Below, one piece after another: positions 641-12,721 of a stretch of DNA of 23,981 nucleotides. The notes below the pieces were generated by a model that ran no database searches, was not told where the DNA came from, and worked only from the letters and a program-made list of their open reading frames with translations. The DNA comes from a virus. Within the stretch, counting starts at the first letter, position 1, and each line of letters opens with the position of its first letter. Location: positions 1 to 23,981 of the IMG/VR virus record IMGVR_UViG_3300006109_000040. One strand, written 5' to 3'. The position numbers and the translations under genes are program-made.

Positions 641-1279
641 ATGTCTACAACACCCTCTTTTGTACTGACTTACGACTCGCTAACTAGCACTGTGCTTCAG
701 TACTTAGAGCGGAAAGACCCTGCTGTTGTCAATTTTATCCCTGTTGCCATTTCATTGTCTGAGTTTGAGATTGCGCAGGAAATTAAAACACTAGGCCAAC
801 TTACAATTGTTAATGCTACTGTGCAGGCTGGCAATCCTGTTGTAGCTAAGCCTGCTAGATGGCGCAAAACTGTATCTTTTAACGTTACAGATACGTCTGG
901 AAATCAAGAGCCAGTGTTGCTTAGGAAATATGAGTATCTAATCAACTATAACATTGGCGCAACATCGGGCCTTCCACTATACTATGCAGACATTGATTGG
1001 GAGCATTGGCTAATAGCTCCAGTGCCTGATCAAGCATACAACTTTCAAGTTTTATATTACAGCCGTTTGCAGCCACTATCGTCTGACAATCAGACCAATT
1101 GGCTTACGCAAAACGCGCCTAATGTAATGCTATATGGCACATTGCTGCAATGCATGCCTTTTTTGAAAAATGACCAACGGCAAATTTTTCAGCAAAAATA
1201 TACTGAAGCCCTTACCGCGTTGAAAACAGAAGATCAATTGCGTTTGGGCGATCGCCAAACCATTGCTGAGGACGCGTAA
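641..1279 (+). CDS. Head-tail adaptor protein (podovirus type)
   Basis: 212 residues. The C-terminal half ([16 protein letters not shown], then [22 protein letters not shown], then a helix ending in acidic residues) matches the pattern I associate with phage adaptor proteins of SU10- and P22-like phages, which form a ring between portal and nozzle. Position supports this, as the nozzle/hub gene lies two genes downstream. No convincing Shine-Dalgarno precedes the ATG, so translation is probably coupled to the endolysin gene ending two bases before. The stop TAA overlaps the next ATG by one base. The assignment rests on recalled family patterns and context, so a related tail-completion protein is possible. 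Confidence 0.65.
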
Positions 1280-2724
1280 TGACAACGTATACCAACCCAT
1301 TTACGGGGCAGACAATCAATCCAACGTCTGTTAGCTATGAAGCTATCACTATTAGCTCAAATACCGTGCTGCAATGGCCTATCAATGGCAACAATAGCAC
1401 GCCGGCAAGCAGTATTATTGATGTTACTGCCACAATTGGCTCGGCAACTTTTAGAGGCTACATTTCTGGTGTAACATTAACAGTTACCGCTGTGTCATCT
1501 GGTACTATTCAGGTAGGCCAAACCATTACGGGCACAAATATAGCTTCAGGCACAATGATTACTGCCCTAGGCTCAGGCAGTGGTAGCACCGGTACGTACG
1601 TTATCAACATTTCTCAAACTGTGGCATCTTCAGGCTCACCTGAGGCCATTACAGCTGTAGCATTGCTTTTGGAGTTGCCCCCTGCAACACAAGTATCTAC
1701 AGGGCAATCAATTCTAGTTAGAAATGTAGGCACTTACGCTTTTACCGTTGCGGACAATGCAGGCAACACAATTGTGTCCGCAACAACTGGGCTTGCGTAC
1801 TTTATTTGGTTGACCGATAACACTACGGTTGCAGGCGCCTGGGCAGAAGTTCAATTTGGCGCAGGCACTTCGGCAGCCAACGCATCGCAATTAGCCGGAT
1901 ATGGCTTACAAGCTAGTGGCTCAACGCTTAACACTATTACGCCATTAGTTAGTTATTATTCAAGCGCTACGTTAAGCGCAACATCGCAATCGCAATTAGC
2001 TACTTGGCAAGGCGGCGTAGGTACACTAACATTGCCTGTGTCATCTGTTGTTGGCGCCAATTGGTTTGTTATCATCAAAAACAATGGCACAGGCATAGTT
2101 ACCGTGCAATGCCAAGGCTCTGATCAGATTGACGCTGCAAATGCGTCATTTCAATTGCAATTGCAAGAGTCTTTTATGCTGGTGTCCAATGGCACCGATG
2201 GTTATAGCTCTTGGGGCTATGGTCAAAGCGCTATATTCTCATTTACGCAAGAGCAGATCTCTGTAACAGGTCAAAGCTCCCCTATTATTCTTACGTCTAC
2301 GCAAGGGTCATACACTTTGCAGCAGTATTTAGGCACGCTTGGCCAAAATACTGTGGTTAGAGTTCCCCCTACCGTGCAGTTTTATGTCATTACAAATAGC
2401 ACATCAGGCACGTATACATTAACATTCTCTACCGGTATAAGTGGCGGTTCAACCACAACTATACCTACAGGCGCTACTGTCGCCATGGTGTGTGATGGCA
2501 CCAACGTTACGTCCGTCACCTCTGTATCAAACAGCATTAGCACACTAACTTTAAGTACAGGCTCCGCAACTAACCCATCACTAAACTTTTTAGGCAACCT
2601 AAATACTGGTTTGTATCTGCCTAACTCAAACCAAGTTGGCGTGACGATTAACGGTGCTGAAGCTGCATTTTTTAGTACAACTGGGCTAACAGTTCTTAAT
2701 GGTATTAGCGGGGGCACGTTTTGA
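1279..2724 (+). CDS. Beta-rich virion structural protein (fibre/decoration type)
   Basis: 481 residues, rich in Ser, Thr, Gly, Asn and Val with almost no Cys, typical of repetitive beta-strand virion proteins. Residues about 55-126 form a discrete module ([18 protein letters not shown], then [10 protein letters not shown], then [14 protein letters not shown]) of a widespread phage and bacterial surface-protein type. A related module lies in the downstream nozzle protein. The C-terminus ([19 protein letters not shown], then [13 protein letters not shown]) resembles the shaft or attachment end of phage fibre-like proteins. The start overlaps the adaptor stop and the stop TGA overlaps the next TTG start. 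Exact role (fibre, decoration or tail-side protein) is not resolved. Confidence 0.6.
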
Positions 2725-4967
2725 CGGCCAAGGTTACCGCTTTACAAGTTCCTGCTGGCATACAGCGGGATGGCACGCAATTTGCGTCTGTTTACTATGT
2801 AGATGGTCAGTGGGTTCGCTTTCAACGTGGTTTGCCAAGAAAGATTGGTGGCTATACCGGTGCCTTTTTAAACGCATCTGGCATTTCCCGTGGCGTGATT
2901 ATGAGTGCGCTTAATGGCCTTAATTACATCATTTCAGGCTATAGCGCAGGCATTCAACAGTGGGTTACAAATGATGTGACGGCAATTGGTACTGGCCCAG
3001 CTACATTTACATTGCCCACAGCGCCAAACTTTACTCCTAGTGCTAACAATCTATGGCAGTTTGACATCGGTTATGACTCGTCAGGCAATAACGCTAACCA
3101 GCTTATTGCACACCCTGGGCAAAACTTAAACTACATCTCAAGCACAATAAAAACACGTCCCTTGTATGGCTTGTTTACTAGCACTACGTTGGCCCCAGTT
3201 GGCGTATTTACGGCAACAGGTTCTATTACTAACGGTAGAACGTTTGTCACTTTTTCTAGTATCAACTCAGGCATTGGCCCCGGTGTAACAGTTACTGGCA
3301 CAGGCATCCCTACCAACACTACCGTGGTCTCGGCCAACTTGCAAGCCTTTGGCCCCATTGGCACTATTGACATTAGCACGCAAGGCTCTGGATACACTAA
3401 TGGCACATACACAGGTATATCCATTATTGGTGGAAAATCAGGTTCAGGCGCCACGGCTACCGTGGTTGTCAGTGGCGGCGCTGTGACTTCGGTAACCGTA
3501 ACTCTTGGCGGTAGCAATTACATCTCGCTTGACTCATTTACTTTAGGCTCTGGCATTGGTTCTGGCTCAGGCTTTTCTGGTTCTATTACCAGCTTGGCTT
3601 CGACTTCTTCCAATCTGTGGACAGCAGTTTTATCGCAAGCTGCCACAGCAACTGCCACAGAGACTCTGACTTTTGATAATAACATTGCAGTGTCCGGTGG
3701 CGTTGTGATGCTTTTCCCATACTTGTTTGTGTATGGCGATGATGGCTTAATTCAAAATTGCGCTGCAGGTGACTTTAATAACTGGACCAGCGCGGACTCA
3801 AACGCCAATAACGTATCTTCAACCAAAGTTGTTAAAGGTTTACCTTTGCGGGGCGGTACAACGTCGCCCTCAGGACTGTTCTGGACGTTAGACTCGGTTG
3901 TTCGTGTTACTTACGCGCCCCAGACCGTAGGCACTTCTACACTATATTGGCGGTATGACTTAATTACGCAGCAAAGCTCAATTTTGTCATCCAGCTGCGT
4001 CATTGAGTATGATGGCATCTATTATTGGATTGGTGTTGACAGGTTCTTGTATTACAACGGCGTAGTGCAAGAAATGACCAACAATATGAACATCAACTAC
4101 TTTTTTGACAACTTGAATTTTAGTCAACGTCAAAAAGTTTGGGCTAGCAAAGTTCCTCGCTATGGAGAGATCTGGTGGTTTTATCCGCGCGGTGACGCCA
4201 CAGAGTGCACAGACGCTATTATCTACAATGTGCGTGAGAAGACGTGGTATGACGCTGGACAAGCCCCGGGGGCTAACCGCGCAGCCGGTATTTTCACTGA
4301 GGTATTTCCTAAGCCTATTTGGGGCGGCACAACCGGTACGCCTATTGTTGAGTTTCAAGGCTCAGTTAGTGGCACTACGTTAACTGTTTCGGACATGGTG
4401 TATGGCACTATCTTTATAGGGCAAATCCTGCAAGGCTTGGGCGTTCCAGATCAAATGGTTATCACAGCGCAGGTAAGTGGAACTGGCGGCACAGGTACAT
4501 ACACTGTGTATAACCCAACGGGTGTTGCTGTAGGTTCTACAGTAATAACAGCAAATGGCTACACTATTTGGGAGCATGAATCAGGCACTAATCAAGTGTA
4601 TTTAACCAATGTTGACGCAATCTATTCTGCCATTGAGACGCCTACTTTAGGCAGTATGACAGGATTGGTAGGCACTACAGGTCAATTTGGCGATAATTAT
4701 TGGACAAGGCTTGAGCGGATTGAACCTGATTTTGTGCAAACAGGCGATATGGACGTGATTGTTACGGGTAAAGGCTACTCAGATGGCACAGATCAGCCAT
4801 CTGACCCTTACACGTTTAGCCCATCAACACTTAAAATTGATATGCGTGAGCAACGTCGTGAAATGCGACTACGTTTTGAGTCAAACACGTTTGATGGTGA
4901 CTATCAAATGGGTAAAATCCTCCTCAACATTGAGGCAGGTGATGTTCGCGGAACAGGTAACCCATGA
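2721..4967 (+). CDS. Tail nozzle / packaged-DNA stabilisation protein (P22 gp10-like)
   Basis: 748 residues from a TTG start that overlaps the previous stop (TTGA). The conserved N-terminus ([12 protein letters not shown], then [21 protein letters not shown]) begins right after it, and the next Met comes too late. The core ([73 protein letters not shown]) resembles beta-propeller hub proteins closing the portal channel in P22- and SU10-like phages. P22 gp10 has about 470 residues. Much of the excess is two inserted beta modules, at about 217-273 ([11 protein letters not shown] type) and 549-612 (GTTLTVS type). The C-terminus ends in [14 protein letters not shown] and a short beta sandwich-like tail. 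It overlaps the next gene by four bases. Confidence 0.75.
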
Positions 4968-5568: not shown

Positions 5569-8088
5569 ATGGCTGGCGGATCATGCAATTATTGTTGCGT
5601 TCCTTGGGGTTGCTGGCCGCCAGTATGCCCAACAGGTGGTTGCTCAGGGAATTGCTGCTTTAGTGGCGGTTGCTGCTCTAGTGGTGGTTGTTGCTATAGT
5701 GGGGGTGGGTGCTGGTGTGGATGCCATTGGCCTTGCAATAGCGGAAGTGGACACTTTCAACCTCCTGCGCCTCCGCCGCCTCCGCCTGTTTGCACGTATC
5801 AGCCTCCTGCGCCATCTCCTGCGCCATCACCATCACCTGTTTGCAATAGCCCGCCTGATTGCATCCCCATTTGTATTCCTCCTATTTGCGAGCCTGTCTG
5901 TGGTCCAGTAGGTGGACCGGGTGGCCCCGGTGCATGCTGCACGCCTATTAAATCACCTGTTTGTACGGGTCCAGTTTGTACTGGTCCAGTTTGTACTGGT
6001 CCAGTTTGCAGCGGGCCTGTTTGTACTGGTCCAGTTTGTACTGGTCCAGTTTGCAGCGGGCCTGTTTGTACGGGTCCAGTTTGCAGCGGGCCTGTTTGTA
6101 CTGGTCCAGTTTGTACTGGTCCAGTTTGCAGCGGGCCTGTTTGTACTGGTCCAGTTTGCAGCGGGCCTGTTTGTACGGGGCCAGTTTGTACTGGTCCAGT
6201 TTGTACGGGTCCAGTTTGCAATAGCCCACCTGACTGTATTCCCATTTGCATTCCGCCTATTTGCGAGCCAGTTTGCGAGCCAGTTTGTGGGCCTGTTTGC
6301 GGTCCTATAGGCGGACCAAATGGCCCAGGTGCATGTTGTATACCTGTTGAGCCCCCAATCTGTTATGGGCCAGTTTGCTGTGAGCCAATATGTACTCCTC
6401 CAGTCTGCTGTGGGCCAGTATGTACTCCTCCAGTTTGCTGTGGGCCAATATGTACTCCCCCAGTTTGTGCTCCTCCAGTCTGCTGTGGGCCAGTATGCAC
6501 CCCTCCAGTTTGTTGTGAGCCTATTGCTTGCTGCATACCTATTTGTATTCCACCTATATGCGCGCCAGTATGCTGCGCCCCAACATGCGACTGCATTCCT
6601 ATTGTTTGCGTAACTTGCTGTGAACCAACTTGCTGTGAGCCTCCAGTTTGCTGTGAGCCTCCAGTTTGTTGTGAGCCACCCCCTTGCTGTATCCCTACTA
6701 TTTGCATAACTTGCACTAAACCAGTTTGTTGTGAGCCACCCCCTTGTTGTGAGCCACCCCCTTGCTGTATCCCTACTATTTGTATAACTTGCACTAAGCC
6801 AGTTTGTTGTGAGCCGCCCCCTTGCTGTATCCCTACTATTTGTATAACTTGCACTAAACCAGTTTGTTGTGAGCCACCCCCTTGTTGTGAGCCTCCAGAT
6901 TGCTGTGAGCCAGCATGCTGCTGCAAGTCTAAAGGCTGCAAGTCTAAAGACTGTAAACCTAAAGACTGTAAGCCCAAAGACTGTAAGCCTAAAAATTGCA
7001 AGCCTACATCGCCTAAAGGCAGCTGCAATAATAGTGGCGCTTTGCCTACAACGCATGGCAAGCCTATAACCGGCGCTTTAAAAGATCAAAACCTAACATC
7101 AAAAGCTGATTATAGTAAAGATCAACTTGAGCAACTTAAACAACTTTTTCCAATGAAAGCTGAGGGCGGCGCCATGAGTTTATGTGTTGAAGAAGCTAAA
7201 AAAGGGATTTTTGCAAATCCTAGTTATGGTATTCCCAATATAGAGATTGTGGGCGATCGACCTGTATATGGCGGCATCAAAGAGACGCAGCCTATACAGC
7301 CTGATGCAGTGCCTTATGCAAATGTACCTGGGTTGCCTAGCAATTTTTTGCCTAATTTACCTACTACACCCACGGAAAAAGCAGAATCTGCAACACCTGA
7401 GCCTATGCCTGGCGCTTTACCTACAACTACAAATAGTCAAACCTGCAATGATTATAGTGTGCACAACACTACGGCGCCTGAAGGGCACATTCCTACAGCG
7501 CCGCAGCATAAGCACTTGCAAACGCAAGGAAGTGCATATGAAATGCAACTTCAGCAATTGCGGCATTTGTATCCGCAAATTGGCCACTTGCATCCTTGTG
7601 TAATGTCTTCATTGGCGGGGATTGACAATCAAGGCGCCCTGCCTAAGGCCGCAACGGGCGGCAGCATATCTTCAATTTTGGGAAATACAGGAATGCCAGG
7701 CGCTACACGTTCTGCAAGTCCTAATGTTTGCTATGGCAACCCATTGTCGCCTAATGCAAAGCTGCACCCACAAAACTTGAATACAGGCGGCGTTCCCGGG
7801 CATCACCCCGAGTTCATTACCGGCGCCACCGGCCATTATGTAAAAGGCAAAGGCGATGGTCAAAGTGATGACATCCCGGCCATGTTGGCTGATGGCGAAT
7901 ACGTGTTTGACGCCGATACTGTGGCTGCATTGGGCAATGGCTCCAGCGACGCAGGGGCAAAATTGCTAGATCATTTTAGAGAAGCTTTAAGAGAGCATAA
8001 ACGAGCAGCGCCAAGTGATAAAATACCACCTGCAGCTTCGCCATTGCAATATATGAAAGAAGCCCTCAAACGGCATAAGGGGAAATAA
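5569..8088 (+). CDS. Hyper-cysteine, proline-rich repeat virion-region protein
   Basis: 839 residues with AAGG before the ATG. By hand count about 116 of the first 485 residues are Cys, an extreme value. Layout: Gly/Cys-rich head (1-60, many CC pairs); Pro-rich linker; a first copy of CNSPPDCIPICIPPICEPVC (92 on); 18 PVC units (130-217); a second copy of that segment (217 on); a long CC/EPP/GPVCC zone with three 20-residue units (about 375-440); CKSKD/CKPKD repeats (452-479). The last 350 residues are ordinary soluble protein with four Cys and end in HPEFITGATGHYVKGKGDG, DDIPAMLADGEYVFDADTV and LQYMKEALKRHK, a C-terminus I associate with phage structural proteins. No signal peptide. The tail probably ties it to the particle while the Cys region forms a cross-linked or metal-binding structure (inference). 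Confidence 0.85.
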   Translation: MAGGSCNYCCVPWGCWPPVCPTGGCSGNCCFSGGCCSSGGCCYSGGGCWCGCHWPCNSGSGHFQPPAPPPPPPVCTYQPPAPSPAPSPSPVCNSPPDCIPICIPPICEPVCGPVGGPGGPGACCTPIKSPVCTGPVCTGPVCTGPVCSGPVCTGPVCTGPVCSGPVCTGPVCSGPVCTGPVCTGPVCSGPVCTGPVCSGPVCTGPVCTGPVCTGPVCNSPPDCIPICIPPICEPVCEPVCGPVCGPIGGPNGPGACCIPVEPPICYGPVCCEPICTPPVCCGPVCTPPVCCGPICTPPVCAPPVCCGPVCTPPVCCEPIACCIPICIPPICAPVCCAPTCDCIPIVCVTCCEPTCCEPPVCCEPPVCCEPPPCCIPTICITCTKPVCCEPPPCCEPPPCCIPTICITCTKPVCCEPPPCCIPTICITCTKPVCCEPPPCCEPPDCCEPACCCKSKGCKSKDCKPKDCKPKDCKPKNCKPTSPKGSCNNSGALPTTHGKPITGALKDQNLTSKADYSKDQLEQLKQLFPMKAEGGAMSLCVEEAKKGIFANPSYGIPNIEIVGDRPVYGGIKETQPIQPDAVPYANVPGLPSNFLPNLPTTPTEKAESATPEPMPGALPTTTNSQTCNDYSVHNTTAPEGHIPTAPQHKHLQTQGSAYEMQLQQLRHLYPQIGHLHPCVMSSLAGIDNQGALPKAATGGSISSILGNTGMPGATRSASPNVCYGNPLSPNAKLHPQNLNTGGVPGHHPEFITGATGHYVKGKGDGQSDDIPAMLADGEYVFDADTVAALGNGSSDAGAKLLDHFREALREHKRAAPSDKIPPAASPLQYMKEALKRHKGK
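5842..5940 (+). repeat. Left flanking copy of the segment bracketing the PVC array
   Basis: Codes for residues 92-124, opening CNSPPDCIPICIPPICEPVC and closing in a GGPGGPGACC stretch. A second, slightly longer copy lies at 6217-6339, directly after the PVC array. The DNA copies are clearly related but diverged, mostly at third codon positions. Confidence 0.8.
5956..6219 (+). repeat. 15-base tandem array coding PVC(T/S)G pentapeptides
   Basis: Seventeen full 15-base units and a final partial one, in frame, encode PVCTG or PVCSG, with 18 Cys spaced exactly five residues apart. Unit variants (CCTGTTTGTACGGGT, CCAGTTTGTACTGGT, CCAGTTTGCAGCGGG) occur in mixed order. This suggests expansion by slippage or unequal recombination of blocks of units rather than of one unit. 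Units are contiguous with no spacers. Confidence 0.95.
6217..6339 (+). repeat. Right flanking copy of the segment bracketing the PVC array
   Basis: Codes for CNSPPDCIPICIPPICEPVC, then an extra EPVCGPVC-like insertion, then GGPNGPGACC. It is the partner of 5842-5940, so the array sits between two related segments in direct orientation. Confidence 0.8.
6691..6888 (+). repeat. 60-base tandem units coding IPTICITCTKPVCCEPPPCC
   Basis: Three copies start at 6691, 6769 and 6829. The first carries an extra 18-base EPPPCC segment, so spacings are 78 and 60 bases. The copies differ by only a few bases, indicating recent duplication. Each 20-residue unit has six Cys, mostly as CC pairs. Confidence 0.9.
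6922..7005 (+). repeat. 15-base tandem units coding CK(S/P)K(D/G/N)
   Basis: Residues 452-479 repeat Cys-Lys-x-Lys-x, with Cys every five residues, the same period as the PVC array but strongly basic. This gives the protein a positively charged, Cys-spaced segment between the CC/EPP zone and the ordinary C-terminal part. Confidence 0.9.
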
Positions 8089-8089
8089 C

Positions 8090-9508
8090 ATGGCAGCACT
8101 CTGTTCTATAACGCCAGTTGGTGCTTGCGCAACGCCTACTGGCACAGTTGGTGCGTCGCCCCCTAGTGGCCAACTTGTAAGTATGCAAGTGTGTAACCTT
8201 GCTTGCTCAGTTGGCGCGCCGCCTCCCGTAACAGGCTTTCATGTGCTAACTCCTGGGCTAACTGGGGCTTTGCCTACATCATCTCCTACGCTTAATAATC
8301 CTATTGTTGGAGGTGCGTCTACGCTAAACACGCCAACTTCAACCCCTGCGCCTTGCCTTGGTGTTACAACCGGCTCGCATGGGGGTTGCAGTATTTTGCA
8401 AGGTAAAGCATTGCCCTGCATTACGACTAAGTCAAGTCAAGTAACTGCGGCGCCAAAGTTTTACACTGACTTTTTAAATAACATTGCTACTGCAGGGGCT
8501 TGTGTAGCTGCTAACGCCCACTATGTTGGGGCAACACCTCTGCAACAGGCCGCGTGGTGCAAAGTTGCTGCTTGCCAAGGCAATTACAAAGGCGCCCTTT
8601 GCGCTGCCAAGAATGTTACTACCGGCGTGCAAAATGCATGTCTTAATCAGCAGGCTCAAAAATACATGAGCCCTTATGTGCATTGCGTAGTAAATCAAAT
8701 TGGCGCCCTTGGGCAAGCCAATATCATGAATAACATTGGCCCTCAGGCCAACGCCGGCATTGTCGGCTCGGGGCAATTTGGCTCAACTCGAGGTGCAACG
8801 GCTTTGGGGCAAGTTCTTTCAAACGCTGCCCTAGGCTTAACGGCGCAACAATCCTGCGCTCTGCAAAAAGGCTACACACAAGCACTATGCACGGCCAAGT
8901 CGCAAGAAAACATGCAACTGGCAGCGGCGAACCAAGGCATTTGCGAGGCCAAGACCACTCAGGCTTTGAGTTTGAACTGCGCCAACGCCTTGGCGACCAT
9001 GGGCGCGCAGCAACAAACCATTGCGCAAAACGCCCAATGCTATCCAATGAAGCAACTGGTTACAGAGTCCAACTTGCTCAAAGGCTACAGCATTCCAGAA
9101 AGCACTTCTTCTTCCTACACTGGGCCTATTCCTGGTGCCTACTCCGCATCTCTGTTGCAACAACTTACTGGCGCCGGTGCATTGGCCAAGGGTCTTATGT
9201 GCGCTTACAAAACGTATAAGTGTATTGCTAAAGGCAGTGGCAGTGGTGGTAAAGGCAGCGGCGGTGGGGGTAGCGGCGGCGGAGGTAGTGGCGGTGGGGG
9301 CGGCTGTAAGGGTGGAAGCGGTGGCGGTGGCGGCTGCAAAGGGCCTGCTTGTGTTGGCACATCCGGCGGTGACCCATGTCAACCAGTTTGCTGCCCACCA
9401 TCTTGCTGCGAACCATCTTGCTGCTGCTCTGGTTGCTGCTCAAGCTGCTGCTCTGGTTGCTGCTCAAGCTGCTGCTCTGGTTGCTGCTCCGGTGGCTGCT
9501 GCGGTTAA
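8090..9508 (+). CDS. Second cysteine-rich virion-region protein
   Basis: 472 residues, start one base after the previous stop, with AAGGGG before the ATG. The middle (KFYTDFLNNIATAGACV, then VGATPLQQAAWCKVAACQGNY, then GALGQANIMNN, then GQFGSTRGATALGQVLSNA) looks like a helical phage structural protein of a kind common in podovirus-type virion operons. It is peppered with single Cys, including MCAYKTYKC. The C-terminus is a Gly-Ser linker (about residues 383-420) followed by QPVCCPPSCCEPSCCC and three CCSGCCSS-type repeats ending in GGCCG. The CCxPxCCEP motif echoes the neighbouring 839-residue protein, so the two may join through these tails (inference). No signal peptide or membrane segment is seen. 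Confidence 0.8.
   Translation: MAALCSITPVGACATPTGTVGASPPSGQLVSMQVCNLACSVGAPPPVTGFHVLTPGLTGALPTSSPTLNNPIVGGASTLNTPTSTPAPCLGVTTGSHGGCSILQGKALPCITTKSSQVTAAPKFYTDFLNNIATAGACVAANAHYVGATPLQQAAWCKVAACQGNYKGALCAAKNVTTGVQNACLNQQAQKYMSPYVHCVVNQIGALGQANIMNNIGPQANAGIVGSGQFGSTRGATALGQVLSNAALGLTAQQSCALQKGYTQALCTAKSQENMQLAAANQGICEAKTTQALSLNCANALATMGAQQQTIAQNAQCYPMKQLVTESNLLKGYSIPESTSSSYTGPIPGAYSASLLQQLTGAGALAKGLMCAYKTYKCIAKGSGSGGKGSGGGGSGGGGSGGGGGCKGGSGGGGGCKGPACVGTSGGDPCQPVCCPPSCCEPSCCCSGCCSSCCSGCCSSCCSGCCSGGCCG
9421..9492 (+). repeat. 24-base tandem repeat coding Cys-pair tail
   Basis: Three adjacent 24-base units at 9421, 9445 and 9469. The first two are identical and the third differs only in its last bases (CCGG for CAAG). 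They encode alternating CCSG and CCSS at the extreme C-terminus of the second Cys-rich protein. Confidence 0.95.
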
Positions 9509-9525: not shown

Positions 9526-11625
9526 ATGGCTGCACTTCCTACAACCGCGCCATCTTTTGGCGGCGATCAAGATGCTCAAAACGAGTATTTAGCCGCCTTA
9601 GAGCGCGTACAGCAATCATTTGAAAACCGCAATAAGACCAATTGGTTCTCCATTGCTGGGGCTTTGCTAAACCCAGGGCGGACCGGCAGCTTTGGCGAGG
9701 CCTTAGGCCGAGTTGGAGATGTTTTAGGCGCGCAGCAGGCTCAGCAAGAACAGCAAGAGCCACAAATTGCTATGATGCGAGCTCAGTTGGCAGCTCAAAA
9801 ATATGAAGTTGCCAATCAAGGCAAGGCCATGAATATGCTAGGCGGCGTGTTTGGCATGGACCCTGCCAAGGTTGCTGAGGGCTTGCAAAATGGTACTATT
9901 AACGCCAACGACCCGTCATTTGCAAGCAAGCTAACGCCTCAACTCTACACGCAAATCTCATTGCTCTATCCTAAACTTGGTGAGACTTTAAAAGGCGCCT
10001 TTGGGATGGACATTGAAAAAGGCAAGCTTAAATCGCAGAATGACACTAATCAGATTGCAGCCATTGAGAAGCTGGCTAAGAATCCTGAATTGTTGCCTGT
10101 CTTCAAACAAATGGGTGTTGTGCCTGCAGACGCAACTTTGGACGCCATCATTAATGGTACAGCCCCAGTTAATGGCAGCATACTTAATGACGCAATAACG
10201 CCGCAGGATAAAAAGCCACCTGCACAGGGGCAAGAAGTTGGTGGTGGTAGTGGCAATACACAGCCGCCTGCTGCTAATCAAAATCAACGTGCAGGGCAGC
10301 AAAGCTTTAGCATGCCTGTCGATGTTGCCAGCAGTAGATTGACAAGCCCCTTTGGGCCCAGGACTAACCCTGTTACGCAGCAGCAAGAGAATCATCCTGG
10401 CTGGGACATGGCAGCGCCTAAAGGCACTCCGGTTGCTAGCATTGGTAATGGTACTGTTTTGCACGTTGGCGCTGATAGTGGCACAAAAACTGACTACGGC
10501 AATAATGTGATTGTTGACTATGGCAATGGCATTACAGTTCGCTATGGCCACCTAGATAAGATTGACCCCAACTTGAAAGAAGGGGCGCCAATTGGGGCGG
10601 GTGTTCCAATTGGTGGTGTTGGCAGTACCGGTTTGTCAACAGGCAATCATCTAGATATGTCTGTGTTTAAAGATGGTAAGCCCGTCGACCCTGCTACCAT
10701 CTTTGGCAATCCTTGGTCTAAACCTGGCTCGCCTATGGCTAGTGTTGAGCCTGTGCAAACTAATAAAGGCATACAGGTTACTACACCAATTCCTCCTAGG
10801 GAGCCTGGCGAGCCTCTAGACGCTTACCGCGAACGTGTCAAGTCTGTCACACAGGCTAACATTGAAATTTCTAGAGAAGCTGCTAAAGTGCCAATTGCTA
10901 TTCAGCAAAGACAAAAAGAGTCTGACATTGCAGTTGGGCAAAAACAAAAAGAATCTGATATTGCAGTTGAGCAAAAGGGCAAAGAGTCCAATATTGATGT
11001 TGGGCAAAAAGACCGCGAGGCTCGTCAAGCCCCTTACATTGAGAAGCATAATCAAATTGCTTCTTATGACTACAATACGGTTCAGCAAAACAACGCCAAA
11101 CTGTCCGAGTTGATGGCCTTGGTTAAAGCGCACCCCGCTGCTGTGGGGCAGTTGACGCATCAAGGCGTTATGTTTGCTTTGGCGCAGTTGGCCGAGAGTG
11201 GCGTTAACACACCAATTGGTAGCTTATCAATTCCAGTTACTGATGCTCTGAACAAGTTAAACCTGTCCGATAAAGAGCAAGAAGCTGCACGAAACATTAC
11301 GCAGTTGATTTCTGACTTGAACCAGTCTGTGATGAAGACGGGCAAAAGTATTTATGGCCCGCAAATCAGTACGTTTGACGCTCAGCAAATGGCTAAGCCT
11401 GGGTTTAAAGATACCGACCCCGCGTCTTTTATTACATACTTAGGCGCCAAACAGCGTGTTGTCAATACTTACATGGGCAAAATGGCAGAGGCTCAGGCTG
11501 ATTACTTTGACGCTCACCCAACGGCGTCAACGGCCTCGTTCCAACGCTCCAAAGTCTATAAAGACATTGTTGATGAATTTAATGCCACATATCGTGACTT
11601 AACCAGCAAATCACCTTACAGGTAA
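9526..11625 (+). CDS. Virion protein with an M23 peptidase-like domain
   Basis: 699 residues with AAAAGG before the ATG and no Cys seen. Gln-rich helical N-terminus (1-150), low-complexity linker (about 225-260), M23 (LytM-like) domain about 265-395, 11-residue coiled-coil repeats (460-492), then a long helical C-terminal region. M23 landmarks align by spacing with LytM: H290 and D294 (HPGWD), H342 (YGHL) and H375 in GNHLDMSV. The final zinc ligand, His in the usual HxH, is Asp377 here, so metal binding may be altered or lost. M23 domains in virion proteins locally open peptidoglycan during DNA ejection. Two Cys-rich genes lie upstream and an internal-protein candidate downstream, consistent with an ejection-protein role. 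Confidence 0.75.
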   Translation: MAALPTTAPSFGGDQDAQNEYLAALERVQQSFENRNKTNWFSIAGALLNPGRTGSFGEALGRVGDVLGAQQAQQEQQEPQIAMMRAQLAAQKYEVANQGKAMNMLGGVFGMDPAKVAEGLQNGTINANDPSFASKLTPQLYTQISLLYPKLGETLKGAFGMDIEKGKLKSQNDTNQIAAIEKLAKNPELLPVFKQMGVVPADATLDAIINGTAPVNGSILNDAITPQDKKPPAQGQEVGGGSGNTQPPAANQNQRAGQQSFSMPVDVASSRLTSPFGPRTNPVTQQQENHPGWDMAAPKGTPVASIGNGTVLHVGADSGTKTDYGNNVIVDYGNGITVRYGHLDKIDPNLKEGAPIGAGVPIGGVGSTGLSTGNHLDMSVFKDGKPVDPATIFGNPWSKPGSPMASVEPVQTNKGIQVTTPIPPREPGEPLDAYRERVKSVTQANIEISREAAKVPIAIQQRQKESDIAVGQKQKESDIAVEQKGKESNIDVGQKDREARQAPYIEKHNQIASYDYNTVQQNNAKLSELMALVKAHPAAVGQLTHQGVMFALAQLAESGVNTPIGSLSIPVTDALNKLNLSDKEQEAARNITQLISDLNQSVMKTGKSIYGPQISTFDAQQMAKPGFKDTDPASFITYLGAKQRVVNTYMGKMAEAQADYFDAHPTASTASFQRSKVYKDIVDEFNATYRDLTSKSPYR
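10903..11001 (+). repeat. 33-base (11-residue) coiled-coil repeats
   Basis: Residues 460-492 are three 11-residue units of the form xQKQKESDIAV, with a fourth partial unit (GQKDREA). An 11-residue (hendecad) period favours a right-handed coiled coil. The DNA units are similar but not identical. Confidence 0.8.
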
Positions 11626-11629
11626 TACT

Positions 11630-12721
11630 ATGCCAGAAGCACAAGACTCTGACGATCAGCCTAAAGCCAAGTCTACGTTGGCTGATATCTTACCTGAGTT
11701 TCATAATGAACAAGGTGAGTTTCATTTGCCTACAATGCAGGAATTGAATACCGAGACCGGTACAAGTCCGCAAACTAATCTTGACACGCTTAACGCGGTA
11801 GGGGCAACCATTGCAGGCGGCGCCATTGGTAAGTTTGGGTCTGAGGTAACGCCTAAGGATCCGTTGTCTGAGATATGGACAGCGCATCAGGCCAATGCAA
11901 CTGCTTTGGAAGACGCAGCAGCAGACTTGCAAAAAGCGCAAGAAGAAGCTAAAAAGCATGGCGTCTTCACACCTAGTGGAGCCAAAACGCCTGAAGGTAA
12001 GTTGGTTATCAATCAAACTAATTTGCCACCAGCGCAAGGCAAAGCACCTTTAACTCCTAAAGGTGGCAATATGACATTCAACTATGGCAAAGAGATGGGC
12101 TTGACGGACTATGACGCTGCTCAGGCCGTTGACATGTCCAAGCAAGAACAAGGGGCTTGGGACGTTGCCAAAAAAGCTCGTGAAGCGGAAAAGAAAATTG
12201 GCCCCGGCTGGGCCATGGATGAAACCCGCGCCAATTTAATGTTGCCTACAACTACGCCAAAAACAGCCGAGGCTACAGAAGCTCGTAAAGCCTTGACCGA
12301 GGCTATGGCTAAGTTTCAAGAAGCAAAGCGGAATGCTGCAGTATCGCAAATTGCACTTGAAAAAGTAAGTGGTAAACCTTTAGAAGTTCTTAGCACTTTG
12401 TCTAAGCCAGTTAAAGAAGGCGTGCTTAGTGCTACTGGGCGGCTTGCTGCAAAAATTCCTGGGGCCCTTACCGGTGCCTACGCAGGCTATGATGCTTATC
12501 AGGCCGAAAAAGATAGAGAAGCTGGCAACTATGGCCGCATGGCAGCGCATGGCCTATCCGCAGCTGGTGGCGCTTTAAGCATGGCCTCTGACCCCAGAGC
12601 TAAAGCTGTTGGCTTTGGTATGCAAGTGCCTGCTATGGGTGTTGATTTGCTGGACATGTTCGCGCCATCGCAAACTAAGAACCCCGTGCTGGAAAAGCTA
12701 AAGCCCCAGTCTAAACCTTAA
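11630..12721 (+). CDS. Probable internal virion / ejection protein
   Basis: 363 residues, the last gene of the plus-strand block. The N-terminal third is acidic and disordered-looking (QDSDDQPKAKSTLADILPEF). The middle is helical with Lys and Glu (DAAADLQKAQEEAKKHG and EARKALTEAMAKFQEAKR). The C-terminus is Ala/Gly-rich (IPGALTGAYAGYDAYQAEK, then GLSAAGGALSMASDPRAKA) and could form amphipathic or membrane-interacting helices. No enzyme motif is visible. Its place after the M23-domain protein and before the terminator is typical of an ejection or internal head protein, but sequence alone does not prove this. Confidence 0.65.
   Translation: MPEAQDSDDQPKAKSTLADILPEFHNEQGEFHLPTMQELNTETGTSPQTNLDTLNAVGATIAGGAIGKFGSEVTPKDPLSEIWTAHQANATALEDAAADLQKAQEEAKKHGVFTPSGAKTPEGKLVINQTNLPPAQGKAPLTPKGGNMTFNYGKEMGLTDYDAAQAVDMSKQEQGAWDVAKKAREAEKKIGPGWAMDETRANLMLPTTTPKTAEATEARKALTEAMAKFQEAKRNAAVSQIALEKVSGKPLEVLSTLSKPVKEGVLSATGRLAAKIPGALTGAYAGYDAYQAEKDREAGNYGRMAAHGLSAAGGALSMASDPRAKAVGFGMQVPAMGVDLLDMFAPSQTKNPVLEKLKPQSKP

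Follow-up and report, generated by a model that had tools for sequence, protein, structure and literature searches.

Joint cysteine enrichment of two adjacent ejection-type phage proteins and its association with an oxygenase gene cassette

Why should two adjacent genes of a phage encode proteins full of cysteine while the genes that follow them encode none? The question is raised by IMG/VR record IMGVR_UViG_3300006109_000040, positions 1 to 23,981, which is referred to as the window in this study. An earlier note on this DNA had described the second of the two proteins, here called B, as Cys-rich with a Gly-Ser linker and a CC tail, had pointed to CCEPP units in the upstream protein, A, and had held the enrichment to be confined to this pair. 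From these observations it proposed that the two proteins co-evolved and may be joined by Cys-mediated contacts in one structure.

Two Cys-rich genes in an ejection gene block

The open reading frames and residue counts confirm the description. B (8090-9508) has 43 Cys in 472 residues (9.1%), and its Gly/Ser linker is followed by QPVCCPPSCCEPSCCCSGCCSSCCSGCCSSCCSGCCSGGCCG. A (5569-8088) has 120 Cys in 839 residues (14.3%), with many CCEPP and CCEPPP units. The M23 protein and the 363-aa protein downstream contain no Cys at all, and the other longer genes of the window mostly lie between 0 and 2% Cys, one 218-aa ORF reaching 4.1%; only small ORFs depart from ordinary values elsewhere in the window. 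The repeats of A and the tail of B are encoded by tandem DNA repeats with units of 15, 18, 30 and 12 nt; the Cys residues in the core of B are single and scattered, unlike the repeat-based tail. The features of the block are listed in Table 1.

Table 1. Features of the gene block carrying A and B (positions in the window)
Feature	Position	Strand	Basis
SU10-type adaptor (PF24175), marker of the tail/ejection gene block	641..1279	+	domain match
Nozzle/stabilisation-type virion protein	2721..4967	+	
Protein A, 839 aa, 120 Cys, ejection/tape-measure-like, first of the Cys-rich pair	5569..8088	+	ORF; relatives
A, Cys/Pro-rich repeat region with GPVCT/GPVCS, CCEPP and KPKDC units	5569..7060	+	
A, C-terminal domain GATGHYVKGKGDGQSDDIPAMLADGEYVFDADTVAALGNGSS..., conserved in Cys-rich and Cys-free relatives	7786..8085	+	
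Protein B, 472 aa, 43 Cys, DNA-ejection-protein family	8090..9508	+	phrog_4287 matches of homologues
B, helical core with scattered single Cys where Cys-free relatives have N/Q/D	8444..9124	+	
B, CC-rich C-terminal tail after the Gly/Ser linker, predicted disordered	9377..9505	+	
M23-peptidase ejection-type protein, 0 Cys (0 Cys throughout the family)	9526..11625	+	
Next protein of the block, 363 aa, 0 Cys	11630..12721	+	

The genes of the window are arranged as endolysin, adaptor (PF24175), fibre-like protein, nozzle-type protein, two small genes, A, B, M23 protein and 363-aa protein. MW202545 (L003), Caulobacter phage GB2A and uncultured contigs share this order, and L002 and L004 show it too. 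A and B thus sit after the adaptor and the nozzle and together with a peptidoglycan hydrolase (the M23 domain), as expected of an ejection block. The C-terminus of A has weak PHROG matches to tape-measure proteins, and 13 of 55 B homologues match the 'DNA ejection protein' family phrog_4287 (best E 1.6e-9; E = 0.005 for the window's own B). Judging from gene order and these matches, A and B are probably ejection proteins of an SU10/P22-like short-tailed phage, injected into the host.

In the model of B, long helices are formed within residues 123-331, whereas the ends are disordered (overall pLDDT 58, helical core mostly 55-86). It gave no match in the PDB with E below 0.001, and its matches in a viral structure library are uncharacterised phage proteins. 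The Cys-rich B homologue of MW202545 (L003, 9004-10242) is annotated in GenBank as 'coronavirus S2 glycoprotein' (UOF78443.1), probably through a spurious match between its Cys-rich tail and that of the spike.

Cys enrichment of A and B and a two-gene cassette

The earlier note had suggested comparing homologues to see whether one of the two genes is commonly Cys-rich without the other. A profile search yielded 80 loci, in each of which A and B were measured, and 65 of them carry a complete pair. Both proteins are Cys-rich in 16 pairs, neither in 49, and no pair is discordant (Fisher p = 1.5e-15), meaning that the enrichment is joint and all-or-none; among Cys-rich pairs, the Cys fractions of A and B are also correlated (Spearman 0.87, n = 14). 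The homologues therefore did not refute the proposal, and co-evolution of Cys enrichment in A and B is strongly supported. What the Cys-rich relatives have in common is the enrichment of both proteins, and the CC tail of B was rejected as a conserved feature, as several of them lack it. In near-complete genomes, Cys-rich compared with Cys-free, A and B are the only large proteins that are Cys-rich. The 73 genes that follow B at these loci (40,230 aa) do not encode a single Cys, and this strict exclusion from an ejection-type protein at all loci itself begs an explanation.

Chance was rejected as a source of the enrichment: in the 63 Cys-free relatives, B totals 23,374 aa with 1 Cys and A totals 59,954 aa with 10. 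Codon reassignment is improbable, since the other genes stay at an ordinary 0.6-1.1% Cys. The maximum-likelihood tree of B calls for three changes to account for the Cys-rich state, and grouping all Cys-rich members in one clade is rejected (AU p = 0.016). Such a change need not be old: L505 (5986-11148) and L503 (5602-7437) each have about 70% DNA identity to the endolysin-nozzle region of the window, yet L505 has a Cys-rich B and a Cys-rich N-terminal part of A, whereas A of L503 has no Cys in 612 aa. Clustering also showed a 120-aa gene just upstream of A to be enriched in Cys-rich loci, but it was dropped as a marker because divergent versions occur in Cys-free relatives.

When Cys-rich and Cys-free genomes were compared, two adjacent gene families tracked the Cys-rich state. 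This cassette consists of a 2OG-Fe(II) oxygenase of about 210 aa (PF13759) and a conserved 78-aa protein. In the relatives, the enzyme scores 34.3-46.4 bits against PF13759 (Pfam cut-off 27). Three of its histidines, H107, H109 and H177, are invariant (alignment A3) and are by analogy putative iron ligands; the position of the usual 2OG-binding Arg is occupied by K, R or H and is not strictly conserved, and PF13759 itself is a 'putative' oxygenase family. The 78-aa protein has no significant Pfam or PHROG match. Its model is all-beta with high confidence (pLDDT 95.5) and found no convincing match in the PDB (best Foldseek E 1.3, VIA Z 2.7). In 69 of 106 cases the two reading frames share 4 nt, and from this arrangement the genes are predicted to be translationally coupled.

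Within the A/B family, profile searches of 50 records found the cassette in every one of the 10 Cys-rich records that reach 23 kb (about seven distinct lineages, four near-identical clade II records being merged) and, among the 36 Cys-free records that reach 20 kb, in a single one (Fisher p = 2.7e-9). This sole Cys-free carrier, L069/G022, has a fibre gene some 0.5 kb ahead of the cassette, and its 414-aa product contains 15 Cys. On the tree, A-Cys and the cassette never switch in opposite directions; a phylogenetic sign test gives p = 0.25, the three independent switches in the family being too few for it. As clades I and II carry the cassette in the late region and clade III carries it in the early region, the linkage is not a matter of position alone. 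The contig of the window carries no cassette, but it begins just before the endolysin gene, where the cassette could lie, so its own cassette would be out of view. Fragments of the nearest relatives that reach 3.7-12 kb upstream carry no cassette, and none of them also covers A and B. A search for relatives extending the window's left end found endolysin-region relatives, none of which spans both that side and A/B with a cassette.

The cassette is not restricted to this family. The 78-aa gene is abundant in uncultured viruses (at least 542 stretches, among 600 candidates listed), and among the phage records searched it occurs in MW202545 only. It is also present in a few lake MAG contigs (L203-L206) binned as Bacteroidota and Betaproteobacteria (Oxalobacteraceae), possibly as prophages or as hints of hosts. 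Cys-rich genes of at least 180 aa number 5.1 per 100 kb at cassette loci, compared to 0.45 in the window's Cys-free relatives, although several of them are enzymes.

Two fibre families show the association. Fibres with YadA-head-like repeats carrying AGxCCQ were collected by pattern regardless of the cassette, and 12 of 13 Cys-rich records have it compared to 0 of 32 matched Cys-free ones (p = 4.5e-10); three more Cys-rich fibres of this type that came from the control pattern (L277, L281 and L312) have no cassette. One YadA-like fibre carries a major-tropism-determinant N-terminal domain, which marks it as receptor-type. KYTY-repeat fibres (NKYTYxxDT) are nearly all Cys-enriched, and the cassette is present in 34 of 41 of their records, most of the others being short fragments; low-Cys matches to the motif have it in 0 of 5. 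The association of the cassette with Cys enrichment in A/B and in two unrelated fibre families is thus strong. Cassette contigs in which a Cys-rich virion protein was not found are G051, G053, G057, G062, G064, G066 and G070, some of which are fragments. Contigs L281 (1027-6354), L312 (3-4082), L253 (257-1813) and L277 (1-1362) encode YadA-like fibres of very high Cys content, with as many as 107 Cys in 1775 aa, but have no cassette; either there is another route to Cys-rich fibres, or these contigs are fragmentary.

Several cassettes have additional neighbours or inserts. Proteins that combine glycosyltransferase-2 (GT2) with TPR are encoded close to the cassette in L163 (12184-13353), L169 (2242-3891), L180 (3874-5460), L183 (838-1926) and L187 (1411-3003), and some of them are fused to a methyltransferase-like part. 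GT2 plus TPR is the architecture of known S-glycosyltransferases, which provides a lead only; a glycosyltransferase was rejected as the common factor, as the A/B-family genomes have no GT2 homologue. In L267 (4003-4692) and L276 (3071-3664), whose YadA-like fibres are among the most Cys-rich, the oxygenase gene is separated from the 78-aa gene by one for a PP-loop (SGGLDS) ATPase-like protein; PP-loop enzymes are frequent in sulphur chemistry. A second 2OG-Fe(II) oxygenase (PF13640) occupies the same place in L145 (9442-10008). The cassettes of L157 (2940-3353) and L158 (3586-3999) have an insert encoding a small protein of 137 aa that contains 8 Cys and motifs of the CxxCxxCC type.

Possible roles of the cysteines

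The positions of the cysteines bear on what they are for. At the Cys columns of the B core, Cys-free relatives have N/Q in 40% and D/E in 17.5% of cases, compared to 19% and 2.3% elsewhere (permutation p below 0.001), and hydrophobic residues in 8% compared to 26%. Mean Asp in the core drops from 2.3% to 0.7% while Cys climbs from 0 to 3.1%, and only 11 of 46 Cys columns are common to two or more clades. In YadA-like repeats, Cys is found at variable positions and never at conserved core ones. Cys thus appears, from the alignments, to replace Asp, Asn and Gln in the B core; its positions there are probably solvent-exposed, and such placement, together with that in the YadA-like repeats, would fit exposed chemical handles better than buried structural disulfides; disulfides between surfaces may be compatible with it as well.

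Our best explanation, to which we give an even chance, is that the exposed cysteines of A and B would be sites for a phage-encoded modification system made up of the oxygenase and its 78-aa partner, and not simply A-B disulfides. In this lineage, exposed polar residues (Asp, Asn, Gln) of the ejection proteins would have been swapped for Cys, and Cys-rich segments added. The exposed cysteines would then be substrates or anchoring sites of the module formed by the PF13759 oxygenase and the 78-aa beta-protein, with Cys as the modified residue, and would be turned into polar groups or used for attachment. The former Asp/Asn/Gln positions would suit a Cys derivative that is polar or acidic. The same module may serve Cys-enriched receptor fibres in other phages.

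A second possibility, which we consider unlikely, is that interchain disulfides between A and B hold both ejection proteins in one assembly, either in the capsid or in a periplasm-spanning channel. The periplasm and the medium are oxidising, and the Cys contents of A and B rise and fall together. There is also the precedent of phage Milano, in which a disulfide network locks virion proteins with 2.1% Cys in the structural proteins (PMC10811340). However, disulfides leave unexplained both the oxygenase cassette and its link to unrelated fibres, the core cysteines of B take mostly clade-specific Asp/Asn/Gln positions, and a thioredoxin-family partner (PF00085), sought in 30 related records, was present in none. 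The co-evolution proposed in the earlier note therefore stands, with 16 pairs Cys-rich in both proteins, 49 in neither and three switches, but the Cys-mediated A-B contacts that it envisaged are not the simplest reading, because the cassette also accompanies Cys-rich fibres in which no A/B pair takes part and because the core cysteines of B lie at polar, probably exposed positions.

Metal binding is somewhat less probable again. According to this explanation, the Cys arrays would bind iron, zinc or copper in the manner of metallothioneins, the oxygenase being tied to them via metal supply or using the metal-loaded protein. A and the B tail are dense in CC, CxxC and CxC motifs, which is consistent with it, as are the iron type of the linked enzyme and the Cys-rich insert in the L157/L158 cassettes, but the lone Cys residues in the helices of B and the isolated CC pairs in YadA loops are atypical of metal sites, and the motifs differ between clades.

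More doubtful still is a common cause, in which Cys-rich virion proteins and the cassette would each be an adaptation to hosts or a habitat that they share, the proteins not being substrates of the enzyme. Both come from many environmental samples, and some cassette contigs have no Cys-rich protein. On the other hand, the same metagenomes yield both states (in 3300013094, L014 is Cys-free, L133 carries the cassette, and G071, the record of L133, has Cys-rich A/B), the cassette is often a few kb from a Cys-rich fibre, and the matched comparison of YadA fibres (12 of 13 compared to 0 of 32) speaks against a common cause. Finally, functionless slippage of TGC/TGT-containing repeats, suggested by the tandem DNA repeats of A and the B tail, is very improbable and was rejected, as it is contradicted by three origins that involved both genes every time and the next gene never, by single Cys substitutions in the B core, by relatives without CC repeats and by the genome-wide link to the cassette.

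Returning to modification by the cassette, we propose, with a little less than even confidence, that many uncultured phages have a dedicated system of an oxygenase and a 78-aa beta-protein of a new family that would convert exposed Cys of virion proteins (ejection proteins here, receptor fibres elsewhere), permitting repeated replacement of Asp, Asn and Gln by Cys. In the open-access literature, which was the scope of our search (subscription journals and preprints lying outside it), we found nothing on Cys-rich ejection proteins or fibres tied to an oxygenase and no described system of such a kind. If the proposal is true: phages would have a widespread and apparently undescribed route to decorate or cross-link their particles via Cys, on unrelated folds; a common 'auxiliary' oxygenase and an abundant orphan family of 78-aa proteins would gain a function; and a new pair of enzymes for modifying proteins would become available. 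Whatever the chemistry, the cassette can be predicted from the presence of Cys-rich virion proteins, the reverse prediction being weaker.

Comparison with known systems

The CCxPx-type repeats and the extreme Cys content of A invite comparison with ultra-high-sulphur keratin-associated proteins and metallothioneins, but the likeness is one of composition only: no homology was found, and Pfam gave only a sub-threshold Extensin match. Among Cys-modifying enzymes of the RiPP type are DUF692/MNIO enzymes with their partners and the GT2 plus TPR S-glycosyltransferases. These would find an analogue in a metal-dependent enzyme that acts, with a small partner, on Cys-rich proteins, and GT2 plus TPR proteins do lie near some cassettes. 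However, the cassette enzyme belongs to PF13759 and not to DUF692, its putative substrates are large virion proteins, and GT2 is lacking in the A/B family.

In SU10, proteins of the kind of A and B reside in the head and then exit, forming a channel across the periplasm (PMC9509320). The block in the window resembles the gp20-24-type ejection proteins of SU10 in its order after the adaptor and nozzle, in the helical core and weak profile match of B, and in having a peptidoglycan-cutting partner, although this is an M23 protein in the window and a transglycosylase in SU10 and MW202545. It differs in its Cys enrichment, which the text of that paper does not mention (PMC9509320): the window's A and B have 120 and 43 Cys, and Cys-free relatives have essentially none.

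Agrobacterium phage Milano also has Cys-enriched virion proteins, and its interchain disulfides have been resolved in the sheath and baseplate (PMC10811340). Its structural proteins have 2.1% Cys, compared to up to 14% here; the proteins concerned are others, and the enrichment described here is linked to a cassette, whose 78-aa gene occurs among the phage records searched in MW202545 only. The phage 2OG-Fe(II) oxygenases of phrog_81/PF13759 belong to the identical enzyme family, phrog_81 being classed as auxiliary/host-takeover. Here, by contrast, the oxygenase is coupled to a 78-aa partner and statistically linked to Cys-enriched virion proteins.
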